From: Deuterostichococcus epilithicus
Taxonomy: Eukaryota > Chlorophyta > Trebouxiophyceae > Prasiolales > Stichococcaceae
Direction of reading: 5' to 3'
NCBI GenBank assembly: GCA_033439295.1
Contig: JAVTLE010000003.1
Location: 186,001 to 250,000, forward strand
Length of the DNA: 64,000 nt
Shown here: one piece after another, positions 4,904 through 63,207 of the stretch
How positions within the stretch are numbered: position 1 is the stretch's first letter
Layout of the letters: the number at the start of each line of letters is the position of its first letter
Program-made: the position numbers and the translations under genes
The notes under the pieces: model-generated
The model's input: the letters and a program-made list of their open reading frames with translations, nothing else
Databases searched by the model: none
Told to the model about the DNA's origin: nothing

Positions 4904-7900
4904 TTACTGCTTCCCGAAGTACTGCTGCATCTGGTCGCATGCCTTTTCCAACTTCTCCATGGACTTGCAGAAGCAAAAGCGCACGAGGTGATGCGGCGGG
5001 TCGGGGCTGCTGTAAAAGGCGCTCACCTGCAGGTCAAGCGGCAGGGGTCAGTGCATGTCGGGAGGTCAGTGCTTCAGCCTAGCCATCTGGCTTGCCGCGT
5101 GCCGACTGCAGCACAGTAGTAGGGACCTGTGCAGCGGAGGGGCAGTGGAGCTGGTGTGCATGGGCGCACCCTGTGGAGCTTATGGCCAGCATGGTGCGGG
5201 CCTCACTCTGATCAAAAGATGCGGAGGGAGTGCATCACACACAGGAGCAGCGCCACCGCACGCCCACATTCTGGGTGCAAAAGAGCGCACCGGGATGAGC
5301 GTGACACCGGCCTCAACGGTGAGCCGCTGGCAGAACTCCACGTCCGTTTCCTGCTGGCTGCTGTCACCATTCTCCAGGCCGCCGCCGTTCTGCCGGCTGC
5401 TGCTGGAAGGATTTGCCAGCGGCCGGATGTCTGCCACCAGAAAGTAGGTGCCCTGCAGTTCAGGCGGCGAGGAAAGCAGGTAATGTCAGGCAGCGGCGCT
5501 CTACAACCCATCGAAAGTGGGCCGTCGAGAGGCTTTGGGGCCGCGGTCGCCAGCAAGCTCACGTTGCGGACGGCGCATGGGGCCGGCCGAACGTATCGTC
5601 GGACCCTCCGATGAGCCCAGTGACCTCCGATGAGCCCGGTGACCTCACGACCAAGCTTGACTCGCAATTTGTCGCAATCCGCCTGAGTTCCATGCAGCAG
5701 CGCGCAACACATGGTTCTGACTTGCTGCGCGCCACATGACCGTGCCAGATAATGACATGGCAGCCGATAGATACTCCCACCTGGCCAGCCAACACCCGGA
5801 AGCCAATCTCCTCCAGCCGCCGCTGCAAATACTCGCGGTTGCCCTGAAGCGATGCGCCCAACCCCCTGCACCGGCCACACGCCATGCTGACGCTTTGCAG
5901 TTGGCCGAGTCGAACTGGCGCCAGTCCAATAAGGCAGTCGTTCCCGTTGCAGTGCCGCATGCTGGGCGCGAATCAAACTTGCAGCCCTTCATCCAAGGAC
6001 TGCTTTTGGGCCACGCCAGTGGCGCAGCAGAGCAGTAAGGCGCTATGCAGAAATGCAGGCTGTGCTGCCTGCATAGGACCCCACTGCCATCGGTCTGTCG
6101 TCGTTCTGCGCAAGCACAGCGTGCGTACTTGTAGAAGGACTGCTCGTGTTCGAGGCCGTATGCGACCGCCCGCTGGAAGTTGGAGGGGATGCAGAAGGTG
6201 ACAAACTGGTGCGCCTTGGCTATGGCGCCGATGAGCTGCTTCGGCCCCGTCGCCCAGCCCACCTGTTACAGGTGGACAGGTTCGGCACATGGTGACGCAG
6301 CAAGCACAGGACGGCACGGCATCCATTTCTCTCGCAATTTGAAGATGCCTGGATGGAGGTTGCCGTTTCCTGAAGCACTACACGCATGCCGAAAGCGCCA
6401 GGCGCAGCTGCTGTGCCGATAACTTGCATGGAGCAGGGCTCCGAATCCACGCAGTGTTGAGGGGACCGTTTCAGTGGCTGCCGCCGACCAGCCTGCTCTC
6501 CTGCCATCAGCTGGCGTGGCCCCGGGGCGCCGCTTCCAACGCACGGCGCCACACAGATGCCAGACGACGAACATCGCGGAGGACACACAAGCACGCATGA
6601 TCCAGACACTACAACGCAAGGAATAAAGAATGGGCGGCGCGCCTTCCAGGCGGTGAGGGAGAAGGTTTTGCCGGCGGAGCCAATCCGGATGGTGCGGTCT
6701 GCCATGCCCGGCAGCGCGCGTATGCTGGTGTGCTCCTGCCCCTGGAACACCAGGTGCTCGTACACCTCGTCTGCGTAAAGGGGCAGGAAGATGGCGTTCA
6801 GAAACACGACATGACGAAACGCTCGTAGCTCGATCTCGTGTGTGGAGCAGGGAGCCACTCCTGGCGACACCAGCCTGGCAACACCAGCCTGCTCGTACAC
6901 CTCGTTCGCGGGAGAGCCGGAGGCATCCAGATACAGGGTTGGCGGGGGCCAGATGATGAGCACACACGACAGACCACATGCCCATGCTCGCAAGAGGGGC
7001 ACGTGCGACACAGGGTCAGGCATGACGGCACAATCGGTATTTCAACTCTCCTTGAGCGGGGGCCGTGCCCGGTGCAATTGCTGGCGGTGCCTGTGGGTTG
7101 TGTCATGCGGGGGAGTCGTGGCACCGCAGCATTCCTCGGCACATTGAGCTTTGTGCACACGGTGCACGACCACAGGCCGGGCAGATGATGTGCGCAAAAC
7201 GGGTCGCGGCCGGCACGAGCGTGTACCTGAGATGACATAGGTGTTGTGCTCCACGCACAGCCGTGCAATGAACTCCAGGTCATCCCTCGAGAACACCTTG
7301 CCTGCAGGCGGAAGGCGCAGCAACAGCACTGCGTCACTGCACACATGTCAAGCCCAGCGCCTTCTCGACCCCGGATCTCAACTCGTGCACGCCACAGAAC
7401 CGCCGTCGCCGGTGCGCTTTGAGTCGAGCACACCGATGCGACGGGTGCTGGCATATGCTGTGTGGGTGCATATGCGCTGCCGCAACCCGCCCGGCCTCGA
7501 CCAGAGTCAGACCTCTGACCCCGAACCCTGAACCTGTCCTCCTACCGGTTGGGTTGTGCGGGCTGTTGAGCAGCAGCAGTTTGGTAGCAGGGGAAAACGC
7601 CGCCGCCAGCGCTTCTCGCCGCACGTCCCAGGTCTCCGAGTCCAGCTGCACAATGCGCGGCACACCGCCGGCGCGGCGGCACATGGGGCCGTATGCGTCG
7701 TACATCGGATCCAGCAGCACCACCTGTTGGGTGAGTTGAGGCGACACCCTGTGAGGAAGACTCTTTCAAACAGGAAGGCCGCGAGAGCGGCCCCGCGCAG
7801 TTCAACCAAACGCCATGCATTCGCATCACAGCAACGTCACCTGTGTGGTGAAGTCCTTCCAGTCACGATCAGTGAGGGAATCTGCCAGGTTCAAACGTGA

Positions 7901-9037
7901 GGCTTGGCAGGAAGCCGCCCACCTCGTCGCCGGGGTTCAGCAGCGCCAGCATCGCGGACGATAGCGCCTCTGTGGCGCCGAGGGTGATGAGCGCGTCCGT
8001 CGCAGGATCGACACTGATGCCCGGGTGCGTCGCCTCGGCGTGCGCCGCCACCGCACGCCGCAGCTCCGGCAGCCCCGGCAGCGGCGCATACTGAGACGGC
8101 AGTGACAGCCGAACACANCAATGCCAGCCGGGTACGTGGAAAGGGGGGGGGCAGGCATTGAAGATCGCCCAGGCGTGTCGTCTCGGCATGCACTGCCGCC
8201 GCCTGCAGCAGCCCCAGAAGCGGCGCATGCTGCGACAATGGCAACACCAAATATGTCGTAGGGGCGGGCATGCGACTACGACAACATGGCGGGAGAATGC
8301 GTTAAGCTTGCGCTGGGGCTTTGCGTCGCAGGCGACTGCAACAGCTGTACGGATCAGGAGTGCGTTACAAGCTCTAAAAATGCGGCGCCTTCTCCTAACG
8401 CGTCTCCGCTCACAAGGCGATGTACGTACTGCCTTCGAAAGGCTGTGTGGTAGTTCAGCTTTGCGACGCGGCGCAAATTTCTGAGCGGCAGCACCTTGAA
8501 GACATGCTGGCTCGTCGGTTCTGCCATCACCGATGGAAACATGTTGCCTTGCTGCGCCCACTCACCTGATTGTGGTGCTCTAGCAGTGCTTCACCCGCCA
8601 CGCGCTTCATGCTGTCTGGCCCCTCCGCGTCCGGAAAGCCTGCAGACAATGACTCCAGCGGTCAAATTACGATTTGAAGTGAGCTGGACGTAGCCCACAG
8701 TATCAAAGCAGCCAACAACCATCAAGCTGAAGTGTTAAGGCCGCCCACCTTGACCGAGGTTGATGCTGTTGTGCTGCACCGACAAGTTGGTCATCACAGT
8801 GAAGATCGTGGTCGGCAAGTTGGCGAATGTTTCATTCAGAGGCTTTTGCGCCGTGACTTTGTCGACCTCATCGTTCCCAGAGCACTGCTGGGCGCTGGCG
8901 TGCGTCATTCTGGCGAACTTTGCAGTCCTGCAGATGCTTTTGGGTCCAAGACCCGAAGCGCTCTCAGGCGGTGTGAAGATGCGAAGCAGGGCTTGACCGC
9001 CAGATGGAGAGCACCGGATGATGGCGCGCGGCAACAT
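4904..9037 (-). CDS. Kynurenine / methionine-type aminotransferase (PLP fold type I)
   Basis: Ten exons (9037..8749, 8639..8566, 8090..7923, 7723..7546, 7301..7227, 6770..6643, 6262..6129, 5865..5781, 5452..5291, 5026..4904) close to 1416 nt, 471 aa plus stop. Landmarks of class I/II aminotransferases occur in order: SINLGQGFPD, NQYAPLPGLPELR, TLGATEALSSA (cofactor phosphate loop), LDPMYDAY, NSPHNPTGK, SDEVYEHL, then SAGKTFSLTAWKVGW with the Schiff-base lysine in SAGKTF. It ends LVRFCFCKSMEKLEKA. The closest families are plant and bacterial kynurenine-oxoglutarate / methionine aminotransferases, which transfer amino groups between aromatic or sulfur amino acids and 2-oxo acids. The Arg/Ser-rich first 45 residues could be an organelle-targeting peptide; translation could also begin at a later Met (MTHASAQ). 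Intron 6 has a GC donor (GAAG|gcgcgc). Two introns carry decayed copies of the next exon. Confidence 0.93.
5606..5643. repeat. 19-bp tandem repeat, two copies
   Basis: Two adjacent 19-base units (5606..5624 and 5625..5643) differ at one base. They lie inside aminotransferase intron 8. Confidence 0.85.
6870..6911 (-). repeat. Echo exon: decayed copy of the start of aminotransferase exon 6
   Basis: A 16-base identical run (6905..6890) repeats the first bases of exon 6 (6770 downwards), followed by about 14 bases of weaker similarity. Same orientation, 135 bp upstream of the real exon, inside intron 5. Confidence 0.75.
7519..7541. repeat. Telomere-like motif next to a 5' splice site
   Basis: Degenerate TTTAGGG-type units, read on the minus strand, begin within about 10 bases of the intron 4 donor of the aminotransferase. 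Confidence 0.55.
8160..8243 (-). repeat. Echo exon: decayed copy of aminotransferase exon 3
   Basis: Reading the minus strand, this stretch repeats the acceptor region and the first 80 or so bases of exon 3 (which starts at 8090). About 19 of the first 22 exon bases and about 28 of 36 bases further on match, with one 9-base deletion. Its frame is broken relative to the gene, so it is not a usable alternative exon. It lies 139 bp upstream of the real exon start. One undetermined base (8118) lies between the copies. Confidence 0.88.
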
Positions 9038-9301
9038 GTTTTGCACATATATTCTGGCACGACGTGAGGTGGACACGTGGATGACTAAACACTTGACCTG
9101 TGACGCGAAGTTGAAGTTTCAGTTTCAACTTTGAGTCGATATCTGTAGAATACGTTCAATATACAACAGTGCTCAATGCACGAGTGATGTTGACAGGCCC
9201 CTGCTCCCAGAACCAATGATGCAACATGTGTGACGCCATTTGCATGCATGCCGCGGCATTGCCTCGTTACAACCTCGCAAGTGCAAAGCGGCACGTTGGC
9301 A
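9038..9301. other. Short tandem intergenic gap
   Basis: 264 bp separate the aminotransferase start from the F-box 1 stop, both on the minus strand, so this holds the aminotransferase promoter and the F-box 3' region. A weak inverted repeat around 9108..9132 (AAGTTGAA / TTCAACTT) is the only structure I notice. Confidence 0.5.
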
Positions 9302-11481
9302 TCACCCCACGTCATCATCCGCCGCGTCCAGCAAAAAGCCGAAGTGCGTCCTCATACGCGCGGACCCGTGTGCGCTGTCGCGGTTCCACCAGTACATCTG
9401 GCGCTCGTCAGGCACGTCAAAGCTGCGCAGCACCCGCCGCAGGGCTGCCATACCAGGCTGCTGTAGCGCGGAGACCCCGCCATCCTCCAGCAACTGCTGC
9501 TTCGTTTTCTGCATCGGACTTTCCACCCCAGCACCAACTGGCAGCGCGCCTGCTCCTGGCGGCAGCGCGTCGCAGATGGCGGCCGGCCGCGCCTGCAGCA
9601 AAGCCTCTGCACTGCAGCGCTGCAGCGCCTGCCGCAGTGGGAAGGCCAGAAGCACCTGCGCAGCCGATGCAGCGGCTCCTCCACTTGCAGGACGCCTGCC
9701 TGGTGGTCATGTGGATGCAATTTGGTGGGAATCGCCATTGGGGCTGACAACTGAGACTGACGACTTGGAGACTGCACCAAGACGAAAAGGGTCATTGACT
9801 GCTCAACGCCACCTGAGACCGGAATGCCGCTGCGCCGCCATCCTGCAGGCTGAGCTCCCCTGACAAACGGCTCGCGTCCATCGAGACCGCAGAGCCGGCC
9901 ATGATACCGACCCAGTCGAGGTACGCGTGCGCCGCCTGCGCCACCAGCATCCAGACGCTACCATGCCTGCACTCACACCACACATCAGCCCTCTGCATTC
10001 TGAGTGACAGCCGCATCACACCATGATTAAGAGAATACCAGATATCAGGCAATGCGTTACGTCCATACACCGCTCAGCTGTGGCCAAAATCAGCAGATCA
10101 GCAGCATTGGATTGCTCGTGTAGGCTGGGCCAAGCCTGCATCCTTGCGCCGCACGCACCGCATGGCGGTGGGCACCAGCGCGCGCAGCTGCAGTCCGAGG
10201 CTGTCGGCAACGATGGTGCAGGTGACACGCAGCGCCTGTGGTGCACCACATCCGCTTCTCTCATTGAGCACGAACGTTCAGGCATGCAACTGGGTCCGAG
10301 ACGCCTGGCAGAGCCGAGCGGCTGCTGGCATGCGAGGAGAGCGCAGGCCCTACCTTGGCCAGGTGGCGCGGGTACCTAGCAGCGGCTGACCCGATGGAGT
10401 CGCGAAGGGCGTTTTTGGACGGGCAGAGCTTGTTCCCAATGTCCTGCACAGCACGGTGGGAAGGGCCCATGACGCACAGGTGCAGCTGCCGGGAGCTATC
10501 ATGGGACTGCACGGAACGGTCGATGGGTCCGTGGCTGCAGAACAACACGCATCTTGGCTTCCGTCGGGAACGCGTGCCGAAGCAGACGCTCCATGTGCGT
10601 CATTTATAAAATGCCTTCGCAGTTATAGACGAGCCAAGGCTGTCAGCGCAATAGCATTTCAGCTGCTGCCCAAGCCTGAACAGCACGCAATATGCAGCCT
10701 CTGCAAGGTGTCTACAGGTGGCCGCCGGGCAGGAAGCTGTGATTGAAGATGTACCTGCCACATGGACAACAGCCCCTCGCAGATGGCAAAGCACTCCTCC
10801 TGGAAGCCGACGGCTGCATGGCGCAGCTCTATCCGCAACAGCCCTGCGACGGGCAACAAGCAGCACTTTTGGCGAGATTGAGCACTGCTGCTTGAGATGC
10901 ATACAGCTCCAAGCAACGATGCAGGCGCAGGCGCAGAACGGAATCGGCAGCGGTCATCTGTACGCATAGGCCGCGTCTGGTGTCCTGCAGAACAGAGTGG
11001 AACACGGAAGCTCACGCAGGCGTTTGCCGGTGCGCGCGAGCAGCCACTCGGGCTGCACTCCTGCAGCTGTGCATACACAACCGGTGGGAGGCCCGCCAAC
11101 CTCTGATGCCGCATAGTCCATCGTCAACGGGCGCATGCCCTTTTGCAGCCACGGCAGCCGTGTCGCGGTCTCTCGCACGGCGCCGGCCAGCGCGGGCTTC
11201 CAGTTGAAGGCCCTCACGGCCGCGGCGCGCCACAGCTCGTCCGACTGCGCAACGCCGCGCAGGTGGAGGCACACGCCGGCGACCGCCGCGAGGTCCGCCG
11301 TGCTGCAGTGCCGCAGAATAGCCACCTGCATCTCCTGTGGCAGCGTGTCCAAGCTGAGACGCTCTCGGGCTTCCAGGCACTGACTCTCAACATGGCGCTG
11401 GTCTGCAGCTGCTTGGCGCGTCGCACTTGCAAGCTGTGGCACAGCGCCGTCAGGTGCCCTTATGCTTACAAATGACTGCAT
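9302..11481 (-). CDS. F-box protein with helical C-terminal region (F-box 1)
   Basis: Six exons (11481..11082, 10843..10755, 10506..10354, 10235..10159, 9966..9813, 9655..9302) close to 1227 nt, 408 aa. Residues about 39-90 form an F-box: LDTLPQEMQVAILRHC, then LAAVAGVCLHLRGVAQSDELW. F-box proteins dock on SKP1 and present substrates to SCF ubiquitin ligases. The rest lacks kelch, LRR or WD40 repeats. It is predicted mostly helical (QEECFAICEGLLSMW, VWMLVAQAAHAYLDWVG, AAAFRSQ then VLLAFPLRQALQ) and ends LRRVLRSFDVPDERQMYW. The same order of motifs occurs in the F-box gene at 57172-60461, so the two look like paralogues. A possible cullin-repeat-like fold is my inference from spacing of Trp/Phe and the FR..V...LR pattern. 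The substrate is unknown. The start at 11481 is the first in-frame ATG. Confidence 0.78.
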
Positions 11482-17800: not shown

Positions 17801-20192
17801 TCCTCCCCCTCCCTTCTGCAACGCCCCTCCCTGAGACACCTGACCACCGCTGAGTCTCGGGGGGCATGCCGTTCTGGCGCGCTGCGCAGCATTGGCTTCA
17901 GTCCAACAGCGCATGCCACATTGCAGCGCCTGCACCCATGACCTGTCCCCAGTTTGCAGAACAACCAGCTTACTGCCCTTAGCCAGCCATCCTCAGCGCC
18001 GCGCCGTAGAGCTTCAGCCTGTGGCCATCTCAGCAGTTCTTTGCGTCACGAGGGTCTGCGAGCCAGCCCGACCCCCCTCTCAATGTGGTTGCAGCACGGC
18101 CCGGGGACCAATGGCGGCTACACGGCGCTGCAGCGGCAGGCATCGGAGCGGTCAGCGGTCACGCGGCAGGCATCGGAGCTGACGGTCAACTCGGTGGCGA
18201 GCGACGCGCCCAGCACTCCGGCCAGGCGGCGCGGCCAGACCGCAGACGCCGTGTCGGGTGCGCCTTGTGGCCTGCGGATCGGCACAATCTCGCGTCCGTG
18301 CACCACAGCTTTTATGCAGCGGGGTGCAGCCGCTGGTGCGCGGCTGGCGCATCAGGGTGGCTCCTTGGGGCTCGGCATCAGTACCACCAACAGCCTGCAC
18401 TCCAATTGGATTCGTGGAAACTTTCGCCTTGATGAGGTGCTCCAGCAGTCCCCATCACCAACTTCGAATTGTTCACACTTTCATAAAAAGGACGCCTACT
18501 CGAAACCCCCACTTGGACTCCGCATCGTCTGCAGCCGCCAGCACGCCGCGGGCGGGCGGCACGCCGCGGGGGCGCTCTCCCACCCACCCTGGAGGGACTG
18601 GCCACCACCTGCCGCTGGGGCATGACGGGCGGCCGCGGCGCGCCACGGAGTCGGCGCTGCCGCGCAAGCCGCGGCGCACGCTGCAGTCCTTTGACGACGC
18701 CTGGGGCGACGAGGAGGGCGACGGCGCAGCGGCAGGCGGCGACAGGTGGGGTTTCCGTGACCGCAGCAACCCCCTTGGGGCACAAATTTCCACCGTGCTG
18801 GTGGGCAGCACCAGCAGCCTTGCGGCTTAGACACACTCCTGCAGATCGAGCTGTTGCATTTGATCACACGGAGCTGCACCGCAGGCAGCTGGCTCCCAGA
18901 GTGCAGCTGGCACTCCTTCCCCCGAATGCCTCAGTCAAGGTCAGGCTGCGCTGCAAGCCACTTTGCAGCGCCCCCCTTCCCCCGTCCCAAACACACACGC
19001 ACGTGAGCTCATGTCATTGGTCTCGCCTGCAGCGGGGACCGGGGGCGTTCGGCATCAGATTCCCATCAATACGCGCCCAGCAGCGCCGGTGACGACTCCA
19101 TGCCGTCGATGCCGTCGACACCAAAGCTGACGCCAGCGCTGGAGGCCAGCCCCACAGACCCAGTACGCCAGACACAACCCGTTCTGAGCATGTGTGCATG
19201 CTTCAGTTGCTTTTTGGGGCTGGCGGTGTCAGGAGATACAACCTTGGGTTGTGTTCGGGTAGGGATGCTACTCGTGCTGCATCAACGGCGTGTACTAATG
19301 GTGCAGCATTGCCGTAGCCATTGCTCGCTTGTTTGCTCGCTTTGCTCGTAGCACTGAATGCGCAAGCGTTACAGCTGTTGCTCCTGGCTGCTACTCGTGA
19401 ACCAGCATCACACGGTGTGCACAGCTGCCGCGTTTTCAGGTCGCTTTTGTGGAATGCCCCATCCTGAACGGTTGCTAGCTCTGCCTGCAGGACGCTGCTG
19501 AGGCGGCCAACGAGCTGACGATGCGCAACATGGCGGGCCAGAGTGCCGCGCAGCGCACCGGCAGCTATGTGCCAGCCGTGGTGGCGCTGCCGGAGATGCA
19601 AGCCATCTTTGGCGCAGCCGGCGCCGGCCCCGGCGCCGGCGAGGAGCCGTCGTCGGCGCAGGGGGAGGCCGGCAGCCGCAGCAGCAGCCTGAACCCGGAC
19701 GAGGGTGGCGAGCGGCGGCAGCAGCGGGAGCNGCAGCANGGTAGGCAGCCNGGCGGCGGNGTCGGCGGGGCGCGCCTCGGCATCGCCGCCTCCGCTGCGG
19801 CGGCGGTGGCGGCCGTTGATGCCGCGGACCACACTTCAGCGAGGGCAGCGGGGGCAGAGTCTCCAGCGCGGGAAGACGAAATGCAGTCGGCGCAGTCCGC
19901 AGGATCTGCCAACGAGGCCGCCAACGAGCTGACGATGCGCGATCTCGGTACCCTGTCTATGTCAGCAGCGGCGGCAGCGGCAGCAGCAGGCGGCGGCGGC
20001 AGCGCCCAGCCAACGAGCGGCGATGTGGCGGGCGGCGGCCCTGAGCTGGCTGCGCTGCTGCAGCCCTCGCCGCCGGCGCTCCGACCCAAGGCGGAGGCTG
20101 CGGCGCAGGCGGCGGCGCTGCACGACCCGGACAACATGAAACGGAACAAGCTCAGGGCCACAAAGGGGGCAGAGTCTGGCCGCCTGATGTGA
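11831..20192 (+). CDS. AZG-type adenine/guanine permease with ~500-residue C-terminal tail
   Basis: Nineteen exons close exactly to 3180 nt (1059 aa), from ATG 11831 to TGA 20190..20192. Exon 1 (11831..11920) encodes [11 protein letters not shown], and exon 2 (12867..12947) continues [21 protein letters not shown] and TVTFLT. Next come [68 protein letters not shown] and [15 protein letters not shown]. These are the membrane-spanning motifs of the AzgA/AZG branch of the nucleobase-cation symporter 2 family, which import adenine, guanine and related purines across the plasma membrane. The transporter proper ends at about residue 557. The remaining 502 residues (exons 14-19) are Ser/Pro/Ala/Gly-rich, probably disordered and cytosolic, with EAANELTMR occurring twice. 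AZG proteins usually stop soon after the last helix, so the tail is exceptional. Undetermined bases occur near 19732-19760. Confidence 0.9.
15715..15736. repeat. Telomere-like motif in AZG intron 10
   Basis: CCCTGAACCCTAAA lies about 18 bases past the donor at 15700. Confidence 0.6.
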
Positions 20193-21004: not shown

Positions 21005-23579
21005 CTACGCCTGGTGTGCGTGGCTGGGCCCCGACAGCAGCCCTTGCTTCTCCTCTGTGGATGCCGCCTGCCCTGCGCCATCCTTCAGCCGGCCGCCCTC
21101 CGGCTGCGGCAGCGGGTTTTCCTCCGTCCCGGGCGCCGCGGAACCCGTCGCCAGGTGCTTCTCAAACGAGTCCGCCGGACCCAGCACCTGTCGTGTCACA
21201 CCGCAGCTAGCTTGCAGATTCAGTGTTAGGAAACTTGTTTCTTGTGTTCTGGGCGCCGCGGAACCCGTCACCAGGTGCTTCTCGAGCGAGCCCGCCAGAC
21301 CCAGCACCTGTCGTGTCACACCGCAGCTAGCTGCAAGTTCCCGTGCAAGTTTTTGTGAAATCAGTTCTGATTTCTGTATCGTTCTGGGCGCCGTTGAGTG
21401 CTGCTCCAGCAAGTCCGCCGGCCCAGCCACCTGTCGCAACTTGGTTGCACTGTTGTTGACGCTGGTGAGGATGCATCTACTCGTGTACAGGCCCCCAGCT
21501 AAAGCTGGATCTCTGTCGATATTCTGCACCATGCAGCGGGTGCTCGAGCCTCGTCTCCAGGTGTACCAACACCCATACCCAAGACAGTGCAGATGAAGCG
21601 AAAAAAACCCGGCAAAACCAGGTCCGCATGCCTTCTGCGGGTTGCAATGCATGCACATGTGTTCCTTTGCTGCAGCAACGCGGCGCATCAGCAACTCCTT
21701 TCGATGTCGCACACCTTCTGTGGATGCCAGTGCTTGGCGAAGCCGCTGAACTTGCGTGGGTCCGAGTCCGCGCCTGCGATGATGCGGTTGAGCTCCCGGT
21801 AGACGCCTTTAAACCCTGCCGGCTGCTTAGCAGTCTCCGCCGTTACCAGGATCTGCGCTCCAGCAGGCAAACGAGACTCAAAACGCGTGCGCACGACTAT
21901 GGTGCAGTCCCAAAAGCGTTGTGCGCAGTAGCCACGTCCTTGAAATGCACGAGACGTATGGTTGACCTTCCAGATGCAGCTGCTTTTGCCTGCAACCGGA
22001 CACGATGCCGCTTGCACCCTGCCATGGGGCAGCGGTCATCAATGGTTGTTGAGCAGTTCCGGCGGAGTGTTGGTGGCGGGAAATGGTCGCACGCTGCAAC
22101 AGGCGCCGCTCGCGCACCGTGGTGGGTGTTGCTGTCGGGCCGTAGAGCGCGTGATTGTGCGCCGCGTCGGCAAAGATCTTGCCGCCTGCAGATGAAGCAC
22201 CGGCTGGTTTGTGGCAGTGTGTCAAGCAATTGGACGAGGAAACCGACGGACCGCCACTTGCACCGGCGCCCTGTGCTGAGAGGTCCAAGGGCTCCAAGGA
22301 CAGGCGGGGCTTGTTGGTCCAAGAAGGGGAGAAACAGCTGGCCCTCGCACAGGAGCGTCCAGAGCTCGGCTGGGTGAGGCTTCCTGCAGAAGCTCTGCAG
22401 GGATCCTCTCCGATAAACACCCGCACCCGTCAGTGAGGCGTCCATCATGAGGCCGTCCGCGATGGTCCAGGCGCAGCTCTCCTTCCAGGAGCGGTCAAAG
22501 GCGTTGGCGGAATCGGCCGTGTCGTCTTCTCCCATCAGCGTCAGGCTGAAGTCCTCGCCGAGGACGGCCTTGCCGCTGCAGAAGGCCTCCACCGCCTCGT
22601 CGGTGCCAAGGGCTATGAGCGTTGCCGACCCGCCAGCGCCTGTGGGTGACACTGTTTTTGGAGTTCTGCGTTTCATTCTGGAGGGGTTCAAGGCCCTCGG
22701 CGTGTGCTGTACTGCAGGAAGGCAGTGAGTCTGGGAGCGGGTGGCAGCACAGCAGTCAAGGGCTTGCGGCAAGCTCGGCACGGGCCAGCTACACCTGGGC
22801 TGCCTGCCTTGCATGCCACAATTTCCACACCACATCTCACATGGGCTGTGCTTGTGCCCGTGGGCTCTGCCGACAGGAGCCACGACCCACCTGCAGTGAA
22901 GCCGATGGAGCCCTCCAGGACTTTGTAGAAAACCGGCGGCGACCAGGCGGGCGGGTCCAGCCCTGTGCGCATGACCAGCCACCCTTTTCCCCACTTAACG
23001 CCCACGCCCAGGCCGACCTTCTGGGTGTGATAGAAGAAGATCCCCTGTGCGGCGCAAAATACACGCACGGGTAAGGCCGCCCGTCACTGCGCAAGCAAGC
23101 TGCAAGCGGCGGCGCCGTGACGATCTGGCACAGCCCTGTGCACAGCGAAGAGCCTGTTCCCAAGTGCAACACGAAGCCCGAATCACAGGATGAATCAGGA
23201 TGTTTTGAGAATGCGCAACTCGGTCTTGAGTGCCGGCTTCGGATCATGAGCGACATGCGGGCGCACCCGGCACGCCCTGAGCGCCTTGGCGTTGATTTGT
23301 CCGCAGGGCCAGCGCGGCGGGTCCTTCCTCGACAGGTGCTGCAGGTGGTCGATCGCTATCAAGGCTTCCTCCTGCGATGCAGGTCATTGCGATCCCTGAG
23401 ATGCATTGCCAGGCGGACACTGCCCGCTGTGGCAGTAGTTTCCCTGCGAGCATGACAGCGCCTGCCGCGGCAGTTGGGTGCGGAGGACCGTGTGAGCATA
23501 TTTGACACGCAGAGCGGTTTCGGGACAGCAGCTTTATACAGTGCCGTACCTGCACGTATGCCTCTGTGCTTTCAACCAT
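21005..23579 (-). CDS. SYLF (Ysc84-type) lipid-binding domain protein
   Basis: Exons 23579..23550, 23371..23267, 23044..22891, 22639..22427, 22185..22118, 21852..21715 and a last exon ending at 21005. The protein starts MVESTEAYVQ and then shows the SYLF fold in order: ALRACRGIFFYHTQKVGLGVGV, WLVMRTG, WSPPVFYKVLEGSIGF, ATLIALGTDEAVEAFCSGK, LGEDFSLTLMG, GLMMDASLTGGKIF. SYLF domains bind phosphoinositides; yeast Ysc84 and animal SH3YL1 link membranes to actin. After the domain comes FKGVYRELNRIIAGADSD, then a C-terminal tail built from a 40-residue repeat. Depending on which of three in-frame acceptors is used (21430, 21307 or 21187), the protein is 377, 336 or 296 aa, and all three keep frame. 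No SH3 or FYVE domain is visible. It lies head-to-head with the EXS gene. Confidence 0.85.
21068..21440 (-). repeat. 120-bp tandem repeat, three copies, spanning acceptor and last exon of SYLF gene
   Basis: Units start at acceptors 21430, 21307 and 21187, giving spacings of 123 and 120 bp. The two downstream units are nearly identical, including the cgacag acceptor. The upstream one is older and shortened. The spacing is a multiple of three and the frame is open through all copies, giving a 40-residue repeat with the core EKHL.TGSAAP. Confidence 0.9.
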
Positions 23580-24711
23580 GACTGCAGCGTATCGTGCTCC
23601 TGTCAAAGCGGCGATCTGGGGGTTGCCAACGGAAAATGAGGCCTGCGGCCGGTGCCGTCCGTCGGTGTCACTCCAGCCTAGTTCGGAAGCCTCGGCAAAT
23701 CCCCAATGGACGCCCAGGCCGGTGGCCGAAAGCAATAACTGGGCTCCTCCCACACTTCCTCAATTTGCCTTGGATGCCTCATGGGGCAAGTTCATATACC
23801 CCCGTCGAGCAACTTACACATATCGCAGACAGGCTGCCTCAGCATTAAGGAGAGACCAATTCTGTGCTCGACCGGCTCAGGCTTCAATCACGCGCAAGTG
23901 AAGTCGAGGTCCTGTCGGATCAACCCCCAGAGTGAGCACCGCAACCGGCACCGCTCCTTGGGAAGCTTATTGGACAGCCTGATCACTTTCAAAACAGCTG
24001 GTTCTACGATCCGAACTGCCTCGAGGGCTTGAACTCAGGGATGGCGGACAGCGCATGAGGCAGACCCTGCCGATCAGTACCAGGCACGCCCTGTCCCAGC
24101 AAAGCGCATCCGGGCAAAGCCTGATTTCGCAAAGAGCTACCCTCACGCCGATTCTAGGAGGGATCACGGGCCCCTGCACTCTGTCGTTGCTGAAGAGTAT
24201 CCCGCCGTCACGGCACTGCACACCGTGCTTGTACGCGCAGCGCGGCCGGCAGTGGAGATTGTCAGCACCTTGATATTGGAGATTGTCAGCACCTTGATGC
24301 ATTCATGCACGGCTGGCAGGTGGGACGCGACGCTGCAGGCAGATGCTCAGCCGCTGCCACGCTCGCCAGGGGTGCGCGCTCGGCACGGCAGCGGCAGCCT
24401 TTCCTCCTTCCAGGTTCGTAATTTGTTACTCAACTTCGCGACGGCGCCCGCCCTCAAATGATGAAGACATCCGACTGCATGCGCACCCGAGAGCTCAGAG
24501 CATGCGCTCACCGGGCAGAGGCGCCTGCGCTGCGGCGCGGCCACTGCAGCGTGGCGGCGGCGCAAGTTGGCGGCCCTCAGGCGCATCAAGGAGATGGAGG
24601 CTTCGCACGACAGGAGGCTCGAGCGCACGCTTCTTGACAACCGGTACAAGTGCCTGTCCAAGCAAACCGGATGAAAACCGCACGATTTGCGCCTACCCGC
24701 AGGCGGACGCA
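23580..24711. other. Divergent region with an orphan coding-like exon
   Basis: Lies between the SYLF and EXS start codons. A highly charged helical frame at about 24553..24674 (+), with KLAALRRIKEMEASHDRRLE and then RTLLDNRYKCLSK, follows a good ctgcag acceptor and ends in TGA. It looks like real coding sequence but is in a different frame from the EXS start. It may be the 3' exon of an unresolved small gene or an alternative 5' exon. The rest shows nothing supported. Confidence 0.35.
24253..24298. repeat. 22-bp perfect direct repeat, period 24
   Basis: Copies at 24253..24274 and 24277..24298 are identical, in the SYLF/EXS divergent region. Confidence 0.85.
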
Positions 24712-41028: not shown

Positions 41029-44000
41029 TTACTCAGGCCGGCACTTCTGGATGCGCTGCACGGTGGCGGGCAGCGCGCCGACGTCGTCCATCCATGCATA
41101 GCACGCCCTGAAGAAGCCCGGCTCTTGCCCGTGGCAGCACTCGCCTACGTGGCGCATGCATGCAAAAATCAACACAGGGTCTGTACCTCACATTGCATAC
41201 TCAAACACCACCGTCCGCCAGGGAGCCGCACGCTCCCCGCAGCAGGTCCCTGCTCCTGACGCGCAGCCAGGCCCCGATCTCCACCAGGGCAGTCGCGGCT
41301 CGTTGTTTGTACATGACAGCAGCGGCGCCCGCACCCGGCGTGAGGATGACCTTCTGCTCGTCGGCGAGCTTGTGCCACAGCCTGCGCTCGCCCTCCCAGG
41401 TCGGCTCCGTGAGAAATTGCCGCAGGTCCAGCCACATCATCATGGTGCTGTCCGCCGGCACGAAGGGGATGCCCGCCTCCGTCAGCGCGCCTGCGGGTTT
41501 CAGGGTTTCAGGGTCAGGGTTTGCAGCCTTCGTCAGCGCCCCAGCGGGCACGCGCACCAGCGGATTGGGCAGCCTGCCCGGTCGGTTGCCGCCATTCATG
41601 CGTCCACGCAGGCAGAGACATGCGCGGCTTGACGGGAGGCCCGCACGAAGGCATGTAAGCGAAGGCGCTGGCCTCAGGGTGCCGGGTTGGCCAAGCTGCT
41701 GGCGCCCAGGAGTGCCGCATTACAAGCGCATTCACGACATGACGAGCGAGGTGACTCCACCTGAGATGGCCCCGTAGGCGGCGCGCAGGCGGCGCTTGTT
41801 CTCTTCGACGTACTCCGACAGCCAGTCGGTGTCCTCAAACAGCTCCGCCAGCGTGTGCTGCACGATGTTGGAGACGCCCGCGAAGTAGCCCGCCAGCGCT
41901 GCCGCCCTGCAGATGTGGTGTGTAACACAGAGTTAGGACCTGACGCAGTCAGTCGTGTGGTGCGCAGGTGTGGCAGCTCGCGGCTTGGGAGCGTGCAGTG
42001 CGGCGACACACTCTGAGAAGGACGGGCAAGCCGCCAGCGCTGCCGCACTCCGGAGTGCTTCGTGCGGTGATAAGCAGATTGCATAGCCCGGCTCCTGCAG
42101 ATGGCTGCTGGGGCAGAGGTGCACGATAGGCGACAGACAGACAGCGCGCCGGCAGCAGCGCCGCTGCTGGGGTGGCAAGATCCCGGCGTCACACGCATGC
42201 GAATGCAAACGTCAGATTGGCGGTGTGCCAAGCCTGCGAGACCAGACAGCCACTGTGCACTATGCTCCGCTCAACCCCCTCAAGCAATCGTGCAGGCGTG
42301 TTGAAATCTTTGTTCGTCATGAGTCGGCTTCCGTCCCGCCCGTTCCCGCTTCGTCTTGTCAGCTGGACCGCCGGCTTCACACAGTTGGTGCCAGGGATTT
42401 CCGTGCCATCTCAGCAAACGTGCAGGCAGTGAGTGCCAAGCGTCTTGAGAGGTCCGGCTCGTCCATTTCACGTAGCTCTGAGACCTTCGGTCAGCGAAAC
42501 GCACTCGATGAAGGCCGCGTTGCGGGTGTAGACGGCGCCCACTCGGAAGCCGGAAGCGCAAAAGTCCTTGGAGACACCAAAGATGACGTGCACGAAGGCC
42601 GCCAGCGCGGCCGCCTGTTTGGGGTGCGACTCGGCGTGCCGCTGTGCCAAAAGGGCCGCCGATGTAAACTCCGCCCCCTCCCCGAAGATGGAGTTGGCAT
42701 ACACCTGCAGGCGGAGCCCCCAACATATTTGTCCATGGCGAGCACGCCGCCAGTGCAGCACCTTGAGCTCGCACACGGACGCGGCTGCCATATTCCTCTG
42801 ATGTTTCCGGCTGCATGGTCAGCAGTGCTGCGCTTCTGCAGGCGCTGGCAATTGCTGCCAGGCCCATGAGGGGGGCTTGGATCGCAACTGATTGCGCCTG
42901 CCAGAGGCGGCCTGCTGCAGGGGCTAGCACTGTGCAAGCAGGAGCGTGTGTGCACCTCGTCGGAGATGAAGTGGATCTCACGCTCGAGGCACCACTCCAT
43001 CATCAGTTGCAGCTGCTCCGGCGAGTAGCAAGTGCCCTGCACCGCACAGCCGCGTGTGAAGCCAAGACGTCGTGGAAGGAAGACGCAATTCTTCCATCCT
43101 GACTGCAACAGTGCAGGCACAGGATTGGAAGCTGCCACCTCGGGATCCACAAGTGGCGTCAACATTCGTGAGAATCACCACCCCGGCTGCAGTGAACCAC
43201 TGCTGGCCCAGGAACAACAAGCTGTCCCTGTTCCATGCGCAGCGGGTCAGTCGCTTCACCAAGTGGCACAGCAACCAGTCCTGAGATGGGGTCCACATGT
43301 TCCTCCAGTGTCGTTCCTGCTTCCGCTGTCCAGCTGCCACACGGGGCGGTGCCTTCGCAAGCACTCCAGAAACCCGCGTGTGCGTGCTGCTCTGCAGGAG
43401 ATGCCACCCTTCAGCATATGCGAGGGAGCTCACGATGGGGTTGTTGGGGTGGCACAGCAGCAGCGCGCGCGACGGGTGGCCGTCTGCCTCCGCAGCCGCC
43501 GCCGCCGCCGCGAGCGCCGGCACGCAGTCCTCGCCGCCGGCGCCCGGCAGCGCGCAGTGCACCGGCACCGGCTTCAGCCCAGCGCTCGCCTGCGGGCCAG
43601 GGTGCAGCGACACGATAGGGACGAGAGCGTGAATGACGTTGAGCCGGAGTCGACCTTGTGGCCATGCAGCAGTGCACCGGCACCGGCTTCAGCCCGCACG
43701 CGCGTGCGGGTCAAGGGGCGGAAGAAGGACCAGATCAGCAACACAAGCAGGGCGCTGTCGATCTTGCCCCTGTGATGACTGCCACACGGGCATCGCAGGA
43801 GGCTCCATGCAGCAGGCAGCTCTGTATACCTGGTGATGTGCACATGCCTGTCGCCGGGTTGCCGTAGCGGCGGACGATCAACAGAGCCGTATACACTATC
43901 TGTGAACCAGCTTGTGCGGCTCGAGTGAGGGTGCCAGCCGCGCCTGTGTGTCAAAGTCGAAGCCAGGGTAGTAGGGCGCCGGGATCAGCACCGAGTCGCC

Positions 44001-48879: not shown

Positions 48880-48914
<35 letters not shown>

Positions 48915-57171: not shown

Positions 57172-60100
57172 TCAGAGCGGCATCACGCGCAGCCGCCGAC
57201 CTGCCGTCAGTTGCGCCGCGCTGCCTTCGAGGCCAAACACCCGTCGCATCTTACTGTGCGTCTGGCCGGCTCGTGTCTGGTCATCGGCCACATCCAGCTC
57301 CCGCAGCAGCACCAGGATCTGCGGCTGGAGGTCGGCAGCCGGTGCTGCAGACTGCCCTTTTGGCTGGGGCACCGCCGCGACAGCCGCAGCCTGTGCACCA
57401 CTGCTGCCGAGGTGCACCTCAGTTGCACATGGCAGCGGTAGCAGCGCCGCCTGCAGCCGGGTGCGCAGTGGATAGCACAGCAGCACCTGCACGCATCCGG
57501 AGATGGTCAGGGTGATCAACAGTGAGTTCGAGAATAGACAGCCGAAGCGTTCCAGCCAGACAGTTGTCCCGGGTAATAGCAAGCAGCAGCCGAGACAAAA
57601 CGCCGAGCGGGGGCGCATCCTAAGCCACATGCTGCTGACCCTTGCCTCCCCTTGCTGACCATGCCCACCCATCCATGTCGTCCATGAATACTGACATGCA
57701 AGCCCACCTGCGAGCGGAAGGCAATGCGGCCCAGCTGCCCCAGGGTGGGCGTGTCCTGGCAGCCACGCTGCATGACCTCTGCAGCACGTTCCGCGCTGAC
57801 GCACTCCGCCAGCAGGCTCATCAGCGGCACTGCAGCGCCCAGCCACTGCTCGAAGCGCCGCCACGCCGCCAGCACGGCCAGCCACAGAGCCCGCCCGTCA
57901 TACCTGCCAGAGGGACGTCACATTGACCCTGCTCGTCAGAGTGTGGTGGTGCTGCTGCCCAAAAGGACATGGTGTTAGCATTGGCTGCACCTGGAAGAGG
58001 AAAACTAACAGGTCTAGGATATCACAGCGAGCTGTGTGCTGTGAAACCTCCTAATAACAGGCTTGCAGCCTGATGCTTCCACAAACCCCCACCTGCACTC
58101 CGCCAGCGTCGTGAGCTGAAAGGCCAGCACGTCGGCGGCGGCAACAAAGGCGGCAGACACCGCCTCGTAGGTGAGCGCCCAGGAGACGCGTGTCAGCTTG
58201 GTCAGCGACCGCCGCACGCTGCCGCACTCCTGGAGCTGCCCCTCCTGCCAGGAGAAGATGCACCACGACATTACAACTCCCACATGTGTGCAGGTGATGC
58301 TCCTCAGGGACGAGATCGCTGCGCTCATGGCTGATGTGCGTTGCCACATGAACCGTTCTGGCACAGGCTTGGGCCCCTGTCACGCACGCGCCAGTTCGTA
58401 TGTCCCTGCAATTTGACAATGGCATGAAGACGGGAAAATGAAAGGAGTGCTTTGCTCAGGTTTACTTTGGGAACAGTCACAACTCCCAGCGGTGGAACCG
58501 GCAATGGCGCACCGTCCACAAACTGCACAGCGCGATGCGCACATCGTCGTGGACCTGCCACATAGTCTCGAAGCGACGGCCGATCTGGCCTGCAGCCACA
58601 GCTCGTCGGTCCAACACTCAGTTGATGCCTGGATGTCGCTTTGATGAGGGCAGTGGAGATGCTCGCAAAGGTACTGCAAGAACCAACATGCAAGAGCGGG
58701 TTTTCAGGACGCATGCTGCTCCAACAGACACTTCAGATATGACCTTGCACCTGACAAGGCCTGGCTCTTTGCCAGCAGCAGCTGCAGCCCCTCGGCTGCT
58801 GCGAAGATGCCGTCCAGGCTGCCACCAGCGCCCTCTGCAGGTGCAGGCGCAAGCTTTGTCGACGACAGGAGCGTCGCCAGCTGCTGCCTGCCATGACAGC
58901 AAGTGTGCTAGCAGGGGCCGGCACGGTCTGGAGGGGGAAAGAACGGCCAGGCGCCGCACGAGGCTTGGGCTGCTTTGAACACTTGGTCGGCATATCCGAC
59001 TGCACCAACCCCATGCCACACCACTTCTACATCGATGCACGGTGAAGGCACCGCGGCCCGGATCGGGGTCACATACTCAACAGGCGCAAAGAATGTTTTG
59101 ACAACACCTCTCAAGAATGGCAAATGCTAACCGTACCTGTGTCATGGCTCACGAAGGCGGCGGCCAAGGCCGGCAGCAGCCACGGCGCAGCGGTCGCGGT
59201 CGAATGCATTGCCGCTCGCAGCGCGCGGTGTTGGCCCCGTGGCCCGGCCCTGGGGTAGTACAGCCGCGCAAAGCCGCCGTGCTGCGCCTCGCTGGTGATT
59301 CCGCTGGCAACGCCGGAGGCGGCGCCAGGGGCGGCCGCTGGCGCCGCCGCGGCTGCGGCCGGAACGCTGCCGGCAGAGCGGCCAGCGGCGGCAGCGTCGC
59401 ACAGGGACCCATAGACAGCATCGGGTGCACGACTGGTGGGACCCCCGTGCCTGTTGCCGCCGCCGGATTGCCGATCTGCGTCCCTGCGGCGCTTGTTTCC
59501 CCATGCGCCCCCACCCGCGCTGCGGTCGCCTCCCGCCTTGCCTGTGGCAGGTCCCGCCCCCGCACCCGGCAGGTCCACTACAACTGCGGCGGCAGCGGCG
59601 TGGCGCCGAGCGGACCGCAAGGCCGCAGCCTGCTGCCGTGCGGCCGCTTCCTGTTTCCGTGTGCGCCCCGGGTCGCACACCGCCCAGAGCTCGTTTGACT
59701 GGGCCACGGCACGCAACTGCCGCGATGCAGCTGCCAGCGCGCACCTGCAAGTTTTGGGCCCGTGGACGCTGAGTGTCCTCGAAGGATGCAGCTGCAGTGT
59801 GCGGCGATGATGGGAGGCTCACTGTTCGGTGGTTTTCATTGACAGTCACCTGCGACAGACCGACGTGCAGGCGCTTGCGCCGCGTATGCCTGCGGGCGGT
59901 TTGGACGGGGCAGCTCGAAGCCCCAGCAGCCGAGTGCCACAGCATGTTGCAGGCCCGGCCTAGACAGCGATGCGGATGCGCACCAGTCTCGCGGCTCCAG
60001 CTGTGTCAGCATCATCATAAGCACGTCGGCCGGCACATCCAGCAGTCCGGCGCCAAGACAGCCGCTGCCAGCGCTCGCTCGCCGCTGCAGCCGACTGCTG

Positions 60101-60461
60101 AATGGCTCCTTGCTAGCCGGGCTGCCGCCCTCCAATGCAGCATCACAGTGCTGTCCTTTGCTGCTGCGGTGCCGCTGCTGGTCGCTGAAATCGCCGGCAT
60201 TCTCGACTTCCGCAGCACCTCCTGGCGCGCAGTGAAACGATTCGTCGCCGCTGAGGCCGTCCAAGTCGGCAAGCATCGCCTGCGCCACACGACGCACAAT
60301 CTATTCGAACCTGTGGTCGCAGTGTGACACCGCGAGGGAGGTGTTAGACCAGAAAGTTTCACCTGCGATGATGCGCCGGCTGCACCAGGGTCATCGCCAG
60401 CGACATCCTGCTTCATTTCGGAGCTGATGTCCAGCCCCCAGCCAGGGAATTCGAACTGCAT
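57172..60461 (-). CDS. F-box protein with helical C-terminal region (F-box 2)
   Basis: Eight exons (60461..60363, 60300..59984, 59744..59137, 58834..58751, 58589..58513, 58244..58093, 57903..57708, 57486..57172) close to 1848 nt, 615 aa. The F-box is split by an intron: LLDVPADVLMMMLTQLEPRDW then CALAAASRQLRAVAQSNELW. An Ala/Gly-rich basic linker (NKRRRDADRQ) follows. Then a helical region: GIFAAAEGLQLLLAKS, RRFETMWQVHDDVRIALCSLW, RVSWALTYEAVSAAF, LAVLAAWRRFEQWLG, GRIAFRSQVLLCYPLRTRLQAALL. It ends with VLLRELDVADDQTRAG. F-box 1 (9302-11481) shows the same motifs in the same order (FRSQ, VLL..PLR, FDVPDE versus LDVADD), so they are paralogues. It is expected to act as an SCF substrate adaptor; the resemblance of the C-terminal part to cullin repeats is inference. 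Substrate unknown. Confidence 0.8.
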
Positions 60462-60923
60462 GCTTGTGAGCCCTCAGAAGGGTAAGAAGGCACTTGAACG
60501 CTTTCGAGAGTTCAGCATAGCCGGTGCCCGCAGCATGACAGCTGAGAAAAAGCGTTCACGAGAGTCATTTGTTTCCAAATCAAAATATGAAAGAAACGCG
60601 GAACCTTGGAGTGACTTCTGCACAGATGACTGATATGCTCACGTGTCCGCTGCGGACGCACAGCGAGGTGCAACGACAGTAAACGGCATTTTTTTGCATC
60701 AGAACCCATTTGAACATCCGCAAACTCTCCAATCTCAGTTAGACTGACCGGCAGCCAGCCCAATCCCAAATCTTGGAGTGGTCAGCCACTCAGAGTTCCA
60801 CTGGAGACACGCGTGCATGCCCTTCGGGGGCTTCATGTCCACCTGACGCCGCTCCTGAAGCCGTTCTCCAAGTGTAACACAGCTCACCCTTCCGCAGTGC
60901 GCCGCAAGGCGACATCTGCCAGC
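60462..60923. promoter_or_regulatory. Divergent promoter region, F-box 2 / thioesterase
   Basis: 462 bp between opposing ATGs. A small plus-strand frame (60427..60633) is present, but half of it lies antisense to F-box exon 1 and it has no family motif. The promoter role is inferred from layout. Confidence 0.4.
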
Positions 60924-63207
60924 ATGGCGACTCCAGCGTTTGGAAAGACCATCGTGCAGAGCGCCAGCGGGAAACACTCGGCCACGGTGTTCATCATGCA
61001 CGGCCTTGGCAGCTCCGGAGAGGGCCTGGCGCACATCGGGCCGACGCTGAACGTTCCTCACGTCAAGTTCATATGTGCGCGTTCGGGCTGCGTGCAGAGC
61101 GACACACACAGTGTTCTCTCTCCTGGACGTCTTTTCCTGCACGCAGAGTTGGCATGAAAACTGCGAAGGCAGATGCAAATGCGTGCGTCTGGGTTCCGGT
61201 AATGTTCTGACCATCGCCTGACCGCTGACTGTAGACCCGACGGCGCCTGAGCGCGAAATCACCATCAATGGCGGCGCAAAGGGCACAGGCTGGTTCGACA
61301 TCCGGCATCCAGGTGTGTGCCTGCATCAAGCATGTGAAGCCTCTGCCAATTAGGGCTATTAAAGCGCACGCACAAGGCCTGCCTGGCGCAGCAGCTCCTG
61401 CCTTGATCCCATGAGTGTCAAGTGCAGCCAGGGCGCCACACGGAGGGCAGCAAACCACCCATGCAGCTCAAGTCAAACTTCATTTACCGCAATATCTGCA
61501 GACCTGATGAACGTGCGAGATGCCCCGGCGATCGGCCAGTCGGTGGAGTATGTGAACCAGCTGGTTCGCAATGAGGTTGCCGCTGGCACCCCGGCAGACC
61601 GCATCGTCATTGGCGGCTTTTCTCAGGTTCGGACTGCACCCGCCAGCCCATCAGCTCAGCGCATGTCGGTGCATGCAAGACTCAGACCAGTCCAGTCAGC
61701 CCTTGCACGGACTTGGCGAGGCAGGGATTCCACAACACATGAGGAGTGCGGGCTGACAAGCCCTTGGTCAGATACCGGAGCCTGGCTCGCATCAGGTATT
61801 GCTCCGGTCGCTGGTGCAGCGCAAGCACGCCATTGCGCGGCGGCAAGGGCGTGAGTCTGCTGATGGTAACGGCATGGTTTCTGACGCTGTCGTTTCGCGC
61901 CCCCGCCGCAGGGTGGCCACATCGCGCTGCGCACTGCGTCTCAGCTGCGGGAGCCGCTGGCAGGCGCCATAGGGCTGTCCACCTGGTGCGAGGTGCCATT
62001 GCAGGTGCGATTGCTTCACACAATTGCTGTTCCTCCATGCTGTGCCTCTGAAACAGTCTGTCGGTCCTGCATCGTTGTCGGCCGGCGCCATCAGCTTGTC
62101 CACCTGATGCCAGGCGCTCCCACAGGTGCACATGGTTCAGCACACCCAGGATTGAACAACCTGTTGCATGTCACTGCCTCCCCCTTGCTTGGTCCCTCAA
62201 GCCAACCATTCATCTTGCAGTCCTGTTTTCAGCCTTTTGCCCCCCCCGATGCAGTTGGCATTATGTGTGGGGACTGCCGTCCCCGCCGTACCATGTTGCA
62301 GTATGTCCGTTGCTGAGTTGCCGCACTGTGTTCCTGCCGCTGCAGCCGGTGCCGACGGCTGTCCAGGCGATGTCGGTGTTCGTCGGCCACGGCGAGTCCG
62401 ACCCGCTGGTACCGGTGGCGCTGGCACGGCAGACGGCCGAGGGGCTGAAGAAGGCTGGTAAGGTCGCTTCTCTCTGACATTGCCGAGGTGTCGGTAGTCC
62501 TGAACCCCATTTCCTAGGCCTGTGCTCGGCTGACGACTCTCGCTTTCGTGCCTCCCAGTTGCATTGAGAAGCACCTGGACTCCTTCCCTGGTCTCTGCAC
62601 TTGCGAATAGTGACCAACGCCTCATAAGTACCTGGCAACAACCCGCAGCATTTGCGCGCCGTGGAGCTGCACACGTACCCCGGGTGTGGGGCCCTTCCCA
62701 CCACTATCATATATGTTGCGAATATGGCCACAAACCTCGATACGTTACCATGCAGGACTGCGCGCCACGGAGCTGCACACGTACCCTGGAGTTGGCCATT
62801 CTACCAGCCCGGGCGAGCTGCAGGACCTGCGGTCCTTCCTGCTGCGCGTGCTCCCAGAGGCACCACCCACTAGGTGCGATCGCGAGAAGGCGGCTGTGGC
62901 TGTGGAATGGCTCTGATGAACCGGGGATGCCGCGCAAGGGGCTGCCGGGGCATGCGAGACTGAGGCGTGGCTAACAGCATGATTCTCATGGCGTTGATCG
63001 TTCGTCTTCTGCTGGACGTCGTTGCTGAAAAACGCTGCACAGAGCTGCCAGGACTAAAGCTGCCTGCCCCTATGCTGCAGCGAGGACGTTGACGCAATGT
63101 CGGTGAAGGAGCTGCGCTCATTCCTGGCCGGCCGCGGCGTCTCCACGACAGGCTTCCTGGAAAAGAGCGAGTTCGTGTCTGCTGCGAAACATGCGTTGCA
63201 TCGGTGA
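60924..63207 (+). CDS. Acyl-protein thioesterase / lysophospholipase with SAP-like C-terminal motif
   Basis: Seven exons (60924..61074, 61235..61312, 61502..61626, 61912..62004, 62346..62457, 62756..62873, 63081..63207) close to 804 nt, 267 aa. The alpha/beta-hydrolase motifs of the APT1/carboxylesterase-2 family are complete: VFIMHGLGSSGEG (oxyanion region), YPTAPEREITINGG, GWFDI, RIVIGGFSQGGHIAL with the nucleophile Ser in GFSQG, GHGESDPLVP with the Asp, and YPGVGHS with the His. These enzymes remove palmitate from S-acylated proteins and cleave lysophospholipids in the cytosol. After the usual end the protein adds about 42 residues: MSVKELRSFLAGRGV then FLEKSEFVSAA, the pattern of a SAP/ARMET-C-like helix-extended-loop-helix. 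That fusion is unusual for APTs (about 230 aa). Intron 5 carries an echo exon. Confidence 0.93.
62645..62700 (+). repeat. Echo exon: decayed copy of thioesterase exon 6
   Basis: About 34 of 40 bases match the start of exon 6, including an 18-base identical run, offset 106 bp and in the same orientation. Similarity fades after about 45 bases. The copy lacks the GHS histidine codon context, so it is not a usable alternative. Confidence 0.88.

Follow-up and report, generated by a model that had tools for sequence, protein, structure and literature searches.

Why would introns of unrelated genes carry a degraded copy of the beginning of the very exon that follows them? The question is raised by a stretch of 64,000 nucleotides from the chlorophyte Deuterostichococcus epilithicus (GenBank assembly GCA_033439295.1, contig JAVTLE010000003.1, positions 186,001 to 250,000 of the forward strand; hereafter the window). 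A small purpose-written gene finder places intron-rich gene models on either strand of this DNA, which has a G+C content of 62%, and a first-pass annotation reported such copies, here called echoes, in at least eight introns. We find that the pattern is real and statistically supported within these 64 kb and that its explanation is mostly known: the echoes are probably best explained by small tandem duplications that recurrently spanned splice junctions and whose intronic copy has decayed. The duplications are best explained as having been kept because splicing uses the outer site, so that introns were lengthened, not newly made.

Among 91 curated introns, six match the head of the exon next downstream with a rank p ≤ 0.01 relative to non-own pairings, where about one would be expected (permutation p = 0.0002), and eight do so at rank p ≤ 0.05. 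Measured by the percentiles of non-own pairs, seven of the introns reach the 99th and six the 99.9th. The six strong echoes, with exon-side scores of 17.5–28.5, precede exons 3 and 6 of a kynurenine aminotransferase-like gene (KAT), exon 5 of the EXS gene, exon 43589 of an ACS-like gene, exon 62756 of an acyl-protein thioesterase gene and the last exon of the SYLF gene. They persist with head lengths of 40, 60 or 90 bases, and under ungapped scoring and varied settings 6–7 of the 91 introns exceed the 99.5th percentile (p = 0.0003). All five of the following had been named in the first-pass annotation as direct copies of exon heads, and each holds at rank p 0.000 (offsets in bp; the SYLF copies are listed further below):

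8166–8229, minus strand: head echo of KAT exon 3, CGCAG acceptor retained, inside the intron 8565–8091 (score 25.0, rank p 0.000, offset 139)
7923–8090, minus strand: real KAT exon 3 (gene model; the spliced protein without the echo is matched by a bacterial relative)
6847–6905, minus strand: head echo of KAT exon 6, acceptor AG gone (score 24.0, rank p 0.000, offset 135)
6630–6770, minus strand: real KAT exon 6, its 3′ end uncertain and perhaps at a GC donor (gene model, bacterial relative)
26964–27002, plus strand: head echo of EXS exon 5, starting at exon base 13, acceptor gone (score 21.0, rank p 0.000, offset 120)
27072–27179, plus strand: real EXS exon 5 (gene model, solved relative)
43669–43703, minus strand: head echo of ACS-like exon 43589, with CAC against the CAG of the real acceptor (score 28.5, rank p 0.000, offset 114)
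43434–43589, minus strand: real ACS-like exon 43589 (gene model, solved relative)
62653–62703, plus strand: head echo of thioesterase exon 62756, with similar intron sequence 5′ of the echo (score 26.5, rank p 0.000, offset 106)
62756–62873, plus strand: real thioesterase exon, exon 7 in the automatic model and exon 6 without the echo-derived exon 62114–62125 (gene model, solved relative)

At KAT, the best bacterial relative covers residues 1–277 of the echo-free protein, in 828 bases, and the downstream copies are therefore the real exons; a genome-contig search with this protein gave bacterial aminotransferases in the best 80 of 583 confirmed loci. Support from solved structures comes from a PHO1 homologue for EXS, from ACC synthase 7 for the ACS-like gene and, as the best match, from acyl-protein thioesterase 2 for the thioesterase. 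Two features of these genes are recorded here in their own right. The ACS-like gene at 43943 and KAT at about 6630 may have GC introns (AG/GCGCG, not GT), judged from the end of protein homology, and a perfect, apparently recent 24-bp tandem duplication (1.9 copies) lies upstream of the EXS gene at 24253–24298.

Fewer introns are securely affected than the at least eight reported; the remaining three that had been named are not individually secure:

25946–25970, plus strand: weak head echo of EXS exon 3, GCGCAG acceptor retained (score 13.0, rank p 0.072, offset 94)
26040–26195, plus strand: real EXS exon 3 (gene model, solved relative)
42031–42046, minus strand: weak head echo of ACS-like exon 41906 (16 bp, rank p 0.022, offset 141)
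41761–41906, minus strand: real ACS-like exon 41906 (gene model, solved relative)
41516–41539, minus strand: weak head echo of ACS-like exon 41490, with CTG against the CAG of the real acceptor (rank p 0.011, offset 51)

The gene finder itself had annotated echoes as exons: that of KAT exon 3 (a 36-nt in-frame exon), that of the thioesterase tail described below (a 12-nt exon, 62114–62125) and two in the ACS-like gene. An earlier run with 570 predicted introns was discarded and replaced by the later models. From these, 68 and 24 introns were taken, and a length filter of 60–900 bp gave the 91. Curation removed 26 predicted exons from models 2–5, 7 and 9, among them KAT ex9 and thioesterase ex5, both coinciding with echoes, and none from gene 6; for gene 8 (ACS-like) 24 introns were listed by hand, with the echo-holding ex45 and ex50 omitted and the start of ex53 shifted, and models 0, 1 and 10 were excluded. 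Protein relatives support these choices for KAT, the thioesterase and ACS. The uncurated automatic models, whose predicted exons include the echoes of KAT exon 3 and ACS 43589, give 4 of 162 introns (p = 0.033).

Could the matches be chance similarity in GC-rich sequence, or an artefact of assembly? The modest uncurated p fits this, as does the weakness of three of the nine echoes. Reverse-complemented introns, used as a control, are null at rank p ≤ 0.01 (1 of 91 for heads and 0 of 91 for tails; permutation p 0.14–0.70). Independently of gene models, and after a filter that removed two pairs, that of SYLF at 120 bp and that of KAT at offset 148, six direct repeats with a score of at least 20 fall at offsets of 91–150, with none at 51–90, 151–200 or 301–400; the others are two at 12–50, two at 201–300, one at 401–500, none at 501–1200 and one at 1201–1500. 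No inverted repeat reaches a score of 20 at offsets up to 400. Clusters of 10-mers show a modest peak at offsets of 120–139 (10, against a baseline of 3.43, s.d. 2.12, maximum 9) and are raised at other short offsets too (8 at 20–39 and 8 at 200–219), a modest rise at several offsets that again suits a chance origin. Against it stand the permutation p and the null controls, and five of the six strong echoes diverge from their exons at many sites and by small indels, unlike duplicated reads. We regard chance or artefact as very improbable. A permissive banded alignment, which continued into random sequence and reached null scores as high as 33.8, was not used for echo boundaries; another alignment was informative for KAT exon 3 only, having returned the trivial self match in the other eight of nine cases.

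If exon heads were duplicated together with the splice site, a remnant of the acceptor should precede the echo. At the expected place, CAG is found at or within one base in four of the nine echoes (KAT exon 3, EXS exon 3, thioesterase and SYLF) and GGAG in one; the motif is lost in the other four. Compared with random intron positions, acceptor-like motifs are enriched there (Mann–Whitney p = 0.0004 for the nine echoes and 0.009 for the six), the acceptors of the KAT exon 3 and EXS exon 3 echoes score at p 0.014 and 0.013, and the last 12 intron bases resemble those of the echo's own acceptor (pooled p = 0.016, nine echoes). The proposal that several echoes include the acceptor is thus borne out for the set.

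Such acceptors might alternatively be kept by selection, as functional decoys, alternative acceptors or microexons. The AG that five of the nine echoes have at the expected place or one base away from it, and the ease with which the gene finder built exons from the KAT exon 3 and thioesterase tail echoes, would agree with this, and so would the mismatches of the EXS exon 5 echo, which lie chiefly at third codon positions. Yet the AG is lost in four of nine, and in alignments to solved relatives (the best match shown) no stretch is inserted at the echo junctions. Indels are mostly frame-shifting: with 60-base heads 13 of 13 are not multiples of 3, and with 75-base heads, covering seven of the nine echoes, 15 of 17. 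Mismatches by codon position are 9/88, 16/91 and 21/89 for positions 1, 2 and 3 across the six echoes. With the exception of EXS exon 5, these counts and the mainly frame-shifting indels fit noncoding decay overall, and they lend no support to the idea, hinted at by EXS exon 5 alone (eight of nine mismatches at position 3), that echoes are still coding. Selection for decoys is distinctly unlikely as a general account.

SYLF shows an intermediate of tandem duplication followed by decay of the upstream copy. As the first-pass annotation had it, this gene has the same layout at 120-bp spacing and in frame, and an older third copy lies upstream:

21398–21436, minus strand: older SYLF copy of acceptor and exon head, intronic (offset 123 to the next copy, 77% identity, rank p 0.000)
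21238–21345, minus strand: SYLF copy 1, sharing its reading frame with copy 2 and comprising acceptor and exon head (85% identity over 108 bp, offset 120)
21118–21225, minus strand: SYLF copy 2, acceptor and exon head, paired with copy 1

An acceptor-like CAG precedes the exon head in each of the three copies, the later two being in frame. These nearly abut, with 108 of 120 bp aligned, whereas in the other echoes the intron half is unreadable. SYLF represents an intermediate stage, a 120-bp tandem duplication that includes the acceptor.

The offsets of the echoes are also alike. The six offsets are 106, 114, 120, 122, 135 and 139; with KAT exon 3 set to 143, between its diagonals at 139 and 148, in the clustering and length tests, they fall within 37 bp (106–143), a range with p = 4e-5 under uniform and 0.004 under exponential placement. 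Introns with echoes are longer (298–475 bp, against a median of 233 bp for the other 85; p = 0.0002), and once the offset is subtracted they measure 192–332 bp and the difference is no longer significant (p = 0.16). Intron lengthening is supported by this comparison of lengths. The same figures bear on the Rogers model, in which the intron itself arises when exon sequence is tandemly duplicated. According to the relevant section of a review (PMC3443670), such an origin is marked by direct repeats flanking the intron. The model wants an offset equal to the intron length, far from the values found here, and the echoes hold remnants of acceptors; we consider it extremely improbable as their source.

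Duplication across a junction need not be confined to acceptors. The first-pass annotation placed echoes always on the 5′ side, which fails at thioesterase exon 4, whose tail and donor are copied downstream; a weaker copy follows EXS exon 9:

61912–62004, plus strand: thioesterase exon 4, tail copied 3′ of the exon (gene model, solved relative)
62080–62139, plus strand: 3′-side echo of the thioesterase exon 4 tail and donor (60 bp, 72% identity, offset 121, score 22.0, rank p 0.000)
27938–28035, plus strand: EXS exon 9, tail copied 3′ of the exon (gene model)
28083–28109, plus strand: weak 3′-side echo of the EXS exon 9 tail with its donor, the GT of which is gone (27 bp, 81% identity, offset 65, rank p 0.017)

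The EXS case is unremarkable, since 7 of 91 tails reach a rank p of 0.05. As a class, the tails of upstream exons in the curated introns are not clearly above chance, with 1 of 91 at p ≤ 0.01 (permutation p 0.08 and 0.31).

Several observations weigh against tandem duplication. First, the curation to 91 introns was partly steered by the finding, the uncurated models yielding the weaker p of 0.033. Second, symmetric duplication predicts an excess of tail echoes, and none is clear (heads versus tails 6 versus 1, p = 0.125; 9 versus 2, p = 0.065). Third, the EXS exon 5 mismatches are unlike neutral decay, and two gaps in the longer, 75-base-head alignments are multiples of 3. Fourth, anchored extension 5′ of the acceptor is significant in no single echo (best p 0.073), and by local score the intron-side match is significant only in the thioesterase (14.0, against a null mean of 7.0); the pooled test weakly rejects an absence of intron homology (p = 0.0275), a value that depends on the thioesterase alone, its p clipped at 0.001. 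Fifth, the ACS 43589 echo has abrupt edges, 27 of 27 identical bases and scant similarity on the intron side, and to judge by its sequence is more suggestive of a short copied insertion.

The last two points lead to another explanation, in which break repair copied 25–70 bp of an exon head about 100 bp upstream as a short templated insertion, with no tandem duplication of the stretch between. Dependence of the pooled intron-side test on one locus, together with the two gaps that are multiples of 3, strengthens this explanation and weakens tandem duplication. Simulated tandem duplication with neutral decay yields intron-side similarity that agrees with the data (p = 0.19), for the two copies of the intron part are both free to drift whereas the exon is constrained. 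Insertion sits poorly with acceptor remnants that are correctly placed as a set, with introns longer by about one offset and with SYLF as a nearly full-unit tandem. It is on balance unlikely for the echoes together; for single cases, both insertion and a decoy acceptor are possible.

Tandem duplication is thus the best-supported reading, on account of the acceptor remnants, the mostly frame-shifting indels, the longer introns and the SYLF intermediate, and in this the first-pass annotation is upheld, with intron lengthening drawn from the length comparison and strict 5′-sidedness given up. Each echo would be the upstream half of an old tandem duplication of roughly 105–145 bp across a 3′ splice site, the unit comprising the intron end, the acceptor and roughly the first 35–75 exon bases. 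Splicing would go to the downstream acceptor and leave the protein unchanged; the upstream acceptor and exon head would turn into intron and decay while selection keeps the real exon, and the intron would grow by about one unit per event. Echoes might, as the first-pass annotation suggested, further offer spare acceptors or seed intron movement. A mirror event across a donor would leave a tail echo downstream, as at thioesterase exon 4. We infer, and have not observed, that each case was a single contiguous tandem duplication and which acceptor RNA splicing selects; what set the unit size is likewise a matter of inference.

Tentatively, the window may represent a lineage with a recurrent, size-focused process that duplicates DNA across splice junctions in units near 120 bp, retained mostly at acceptors, such that about 1 in 15 introns has a readable echo and intron growth and turnover proceed largely in this way; we hold this broader reading to be doubtful. 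Should the excess hold genome-wide, echoes would make one mutational route to longer introns countable and, in rough terms, datable, and would allow a test of the way in which splicing conceals duplications spanning splice sites. They also carry a warning, as gene predictors can annotate echoes as exons.

As for the rest of the window, Pfam domains were found in 7 of 10 scanned proteins: aminotransferase (two genes), permease, SYLF/Ysc84, MRNIP, ACBP and SNF2. Searches of the window for tRNAs and, at the gathering threshold, for Rfam families gave no match, and scans of viral contigs turned up no relatives. In the model whose first part is the permease, one predicted exon holds a 27-bp direct repeat (19500–19526 and 19914–19940, 414 bp apart, 96% identical and in frame), so that the peptide EAANELTMR occurs twice. 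The minus-strand predicted genes 9306–11331 and 57201–58887 appear to be related but diverged (identity at 42 of 167 residues, E 1e-05, a single comparison).

How do the echoes compare with known systems? An introner-like layout, with one sequence at many loci, is not what we see: the six introns score higher with their own exon head than with those of other introns, in a comparison of introns with heads, not of echo with echo. Whole-exon duplication and mutually exclusive exons need a complete exon copy with a donor and an open frame; the echo matches cover 16–60 bases of the head, and at most 75 with longer heads. Tandem genomic duplication of exon sequence is one mechanism of intron gain in the review cited above (PMC3443670), and resembles the echoes as a small direct tandem duplication within a gene of which one copy is later intron; as outlined in that part of the review, it duplicates exon sequence with AGGT and the intron is the duplication, unlike the echoes. 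Drosophila introns that arose by tandem duplication (Lehmann et al. 2010, PMC2891723) likewise have exon sequence doubled and one copy intronised; those described in the excerpted text lie inside coding exons, where they occupy proto-splice sites and do not span acceptors already in place. Small tandem duplications can arise through Pol alpha-primase fill-in at staggered breaks, as seen in experimental cells with induced breaks (PMC8355091); for the echoes this is an analogy only, and the excerpts of that report make no tie to splice sites or algae.

No earlier report of recurrent exon-head echoes was recognised in literature searched by title and abstract start, a search that did not reach the Chlorella variabilis genome paper or Gao and Lynch 2009, and the intron passages of the Coccomyxa and Auxenochlorella genome papers and of a review (PMC3488318) mention none. 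The junction-spanning layout itself has been published for one gene, that for RdRp in potato (Ma, Lan and Niu 2016, PMC4974935). There, in the sections of the paper that set out the case, the unit is likewise the 3′ part of an intron with the 5′ part of the downstream exon, the once-exonic piece of the upstream copy is now intron, and splice signals were inherited. The echoes correspond in being direct, in the same gene and near their source (6 of 91 as own-head echoes), with acceptor and intron 3′ end copied, as a set. The potato duplication is one recent case, in which a new intron arose through a cryptic donor and exon sequence was added, whereas the echoes are several old cases inside longer introns, with no new donor seen, although none was sought. 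As far as the literature searched shows, what the echoes add to the potato layout is its recurrence within 64 kb and a similar unit size.

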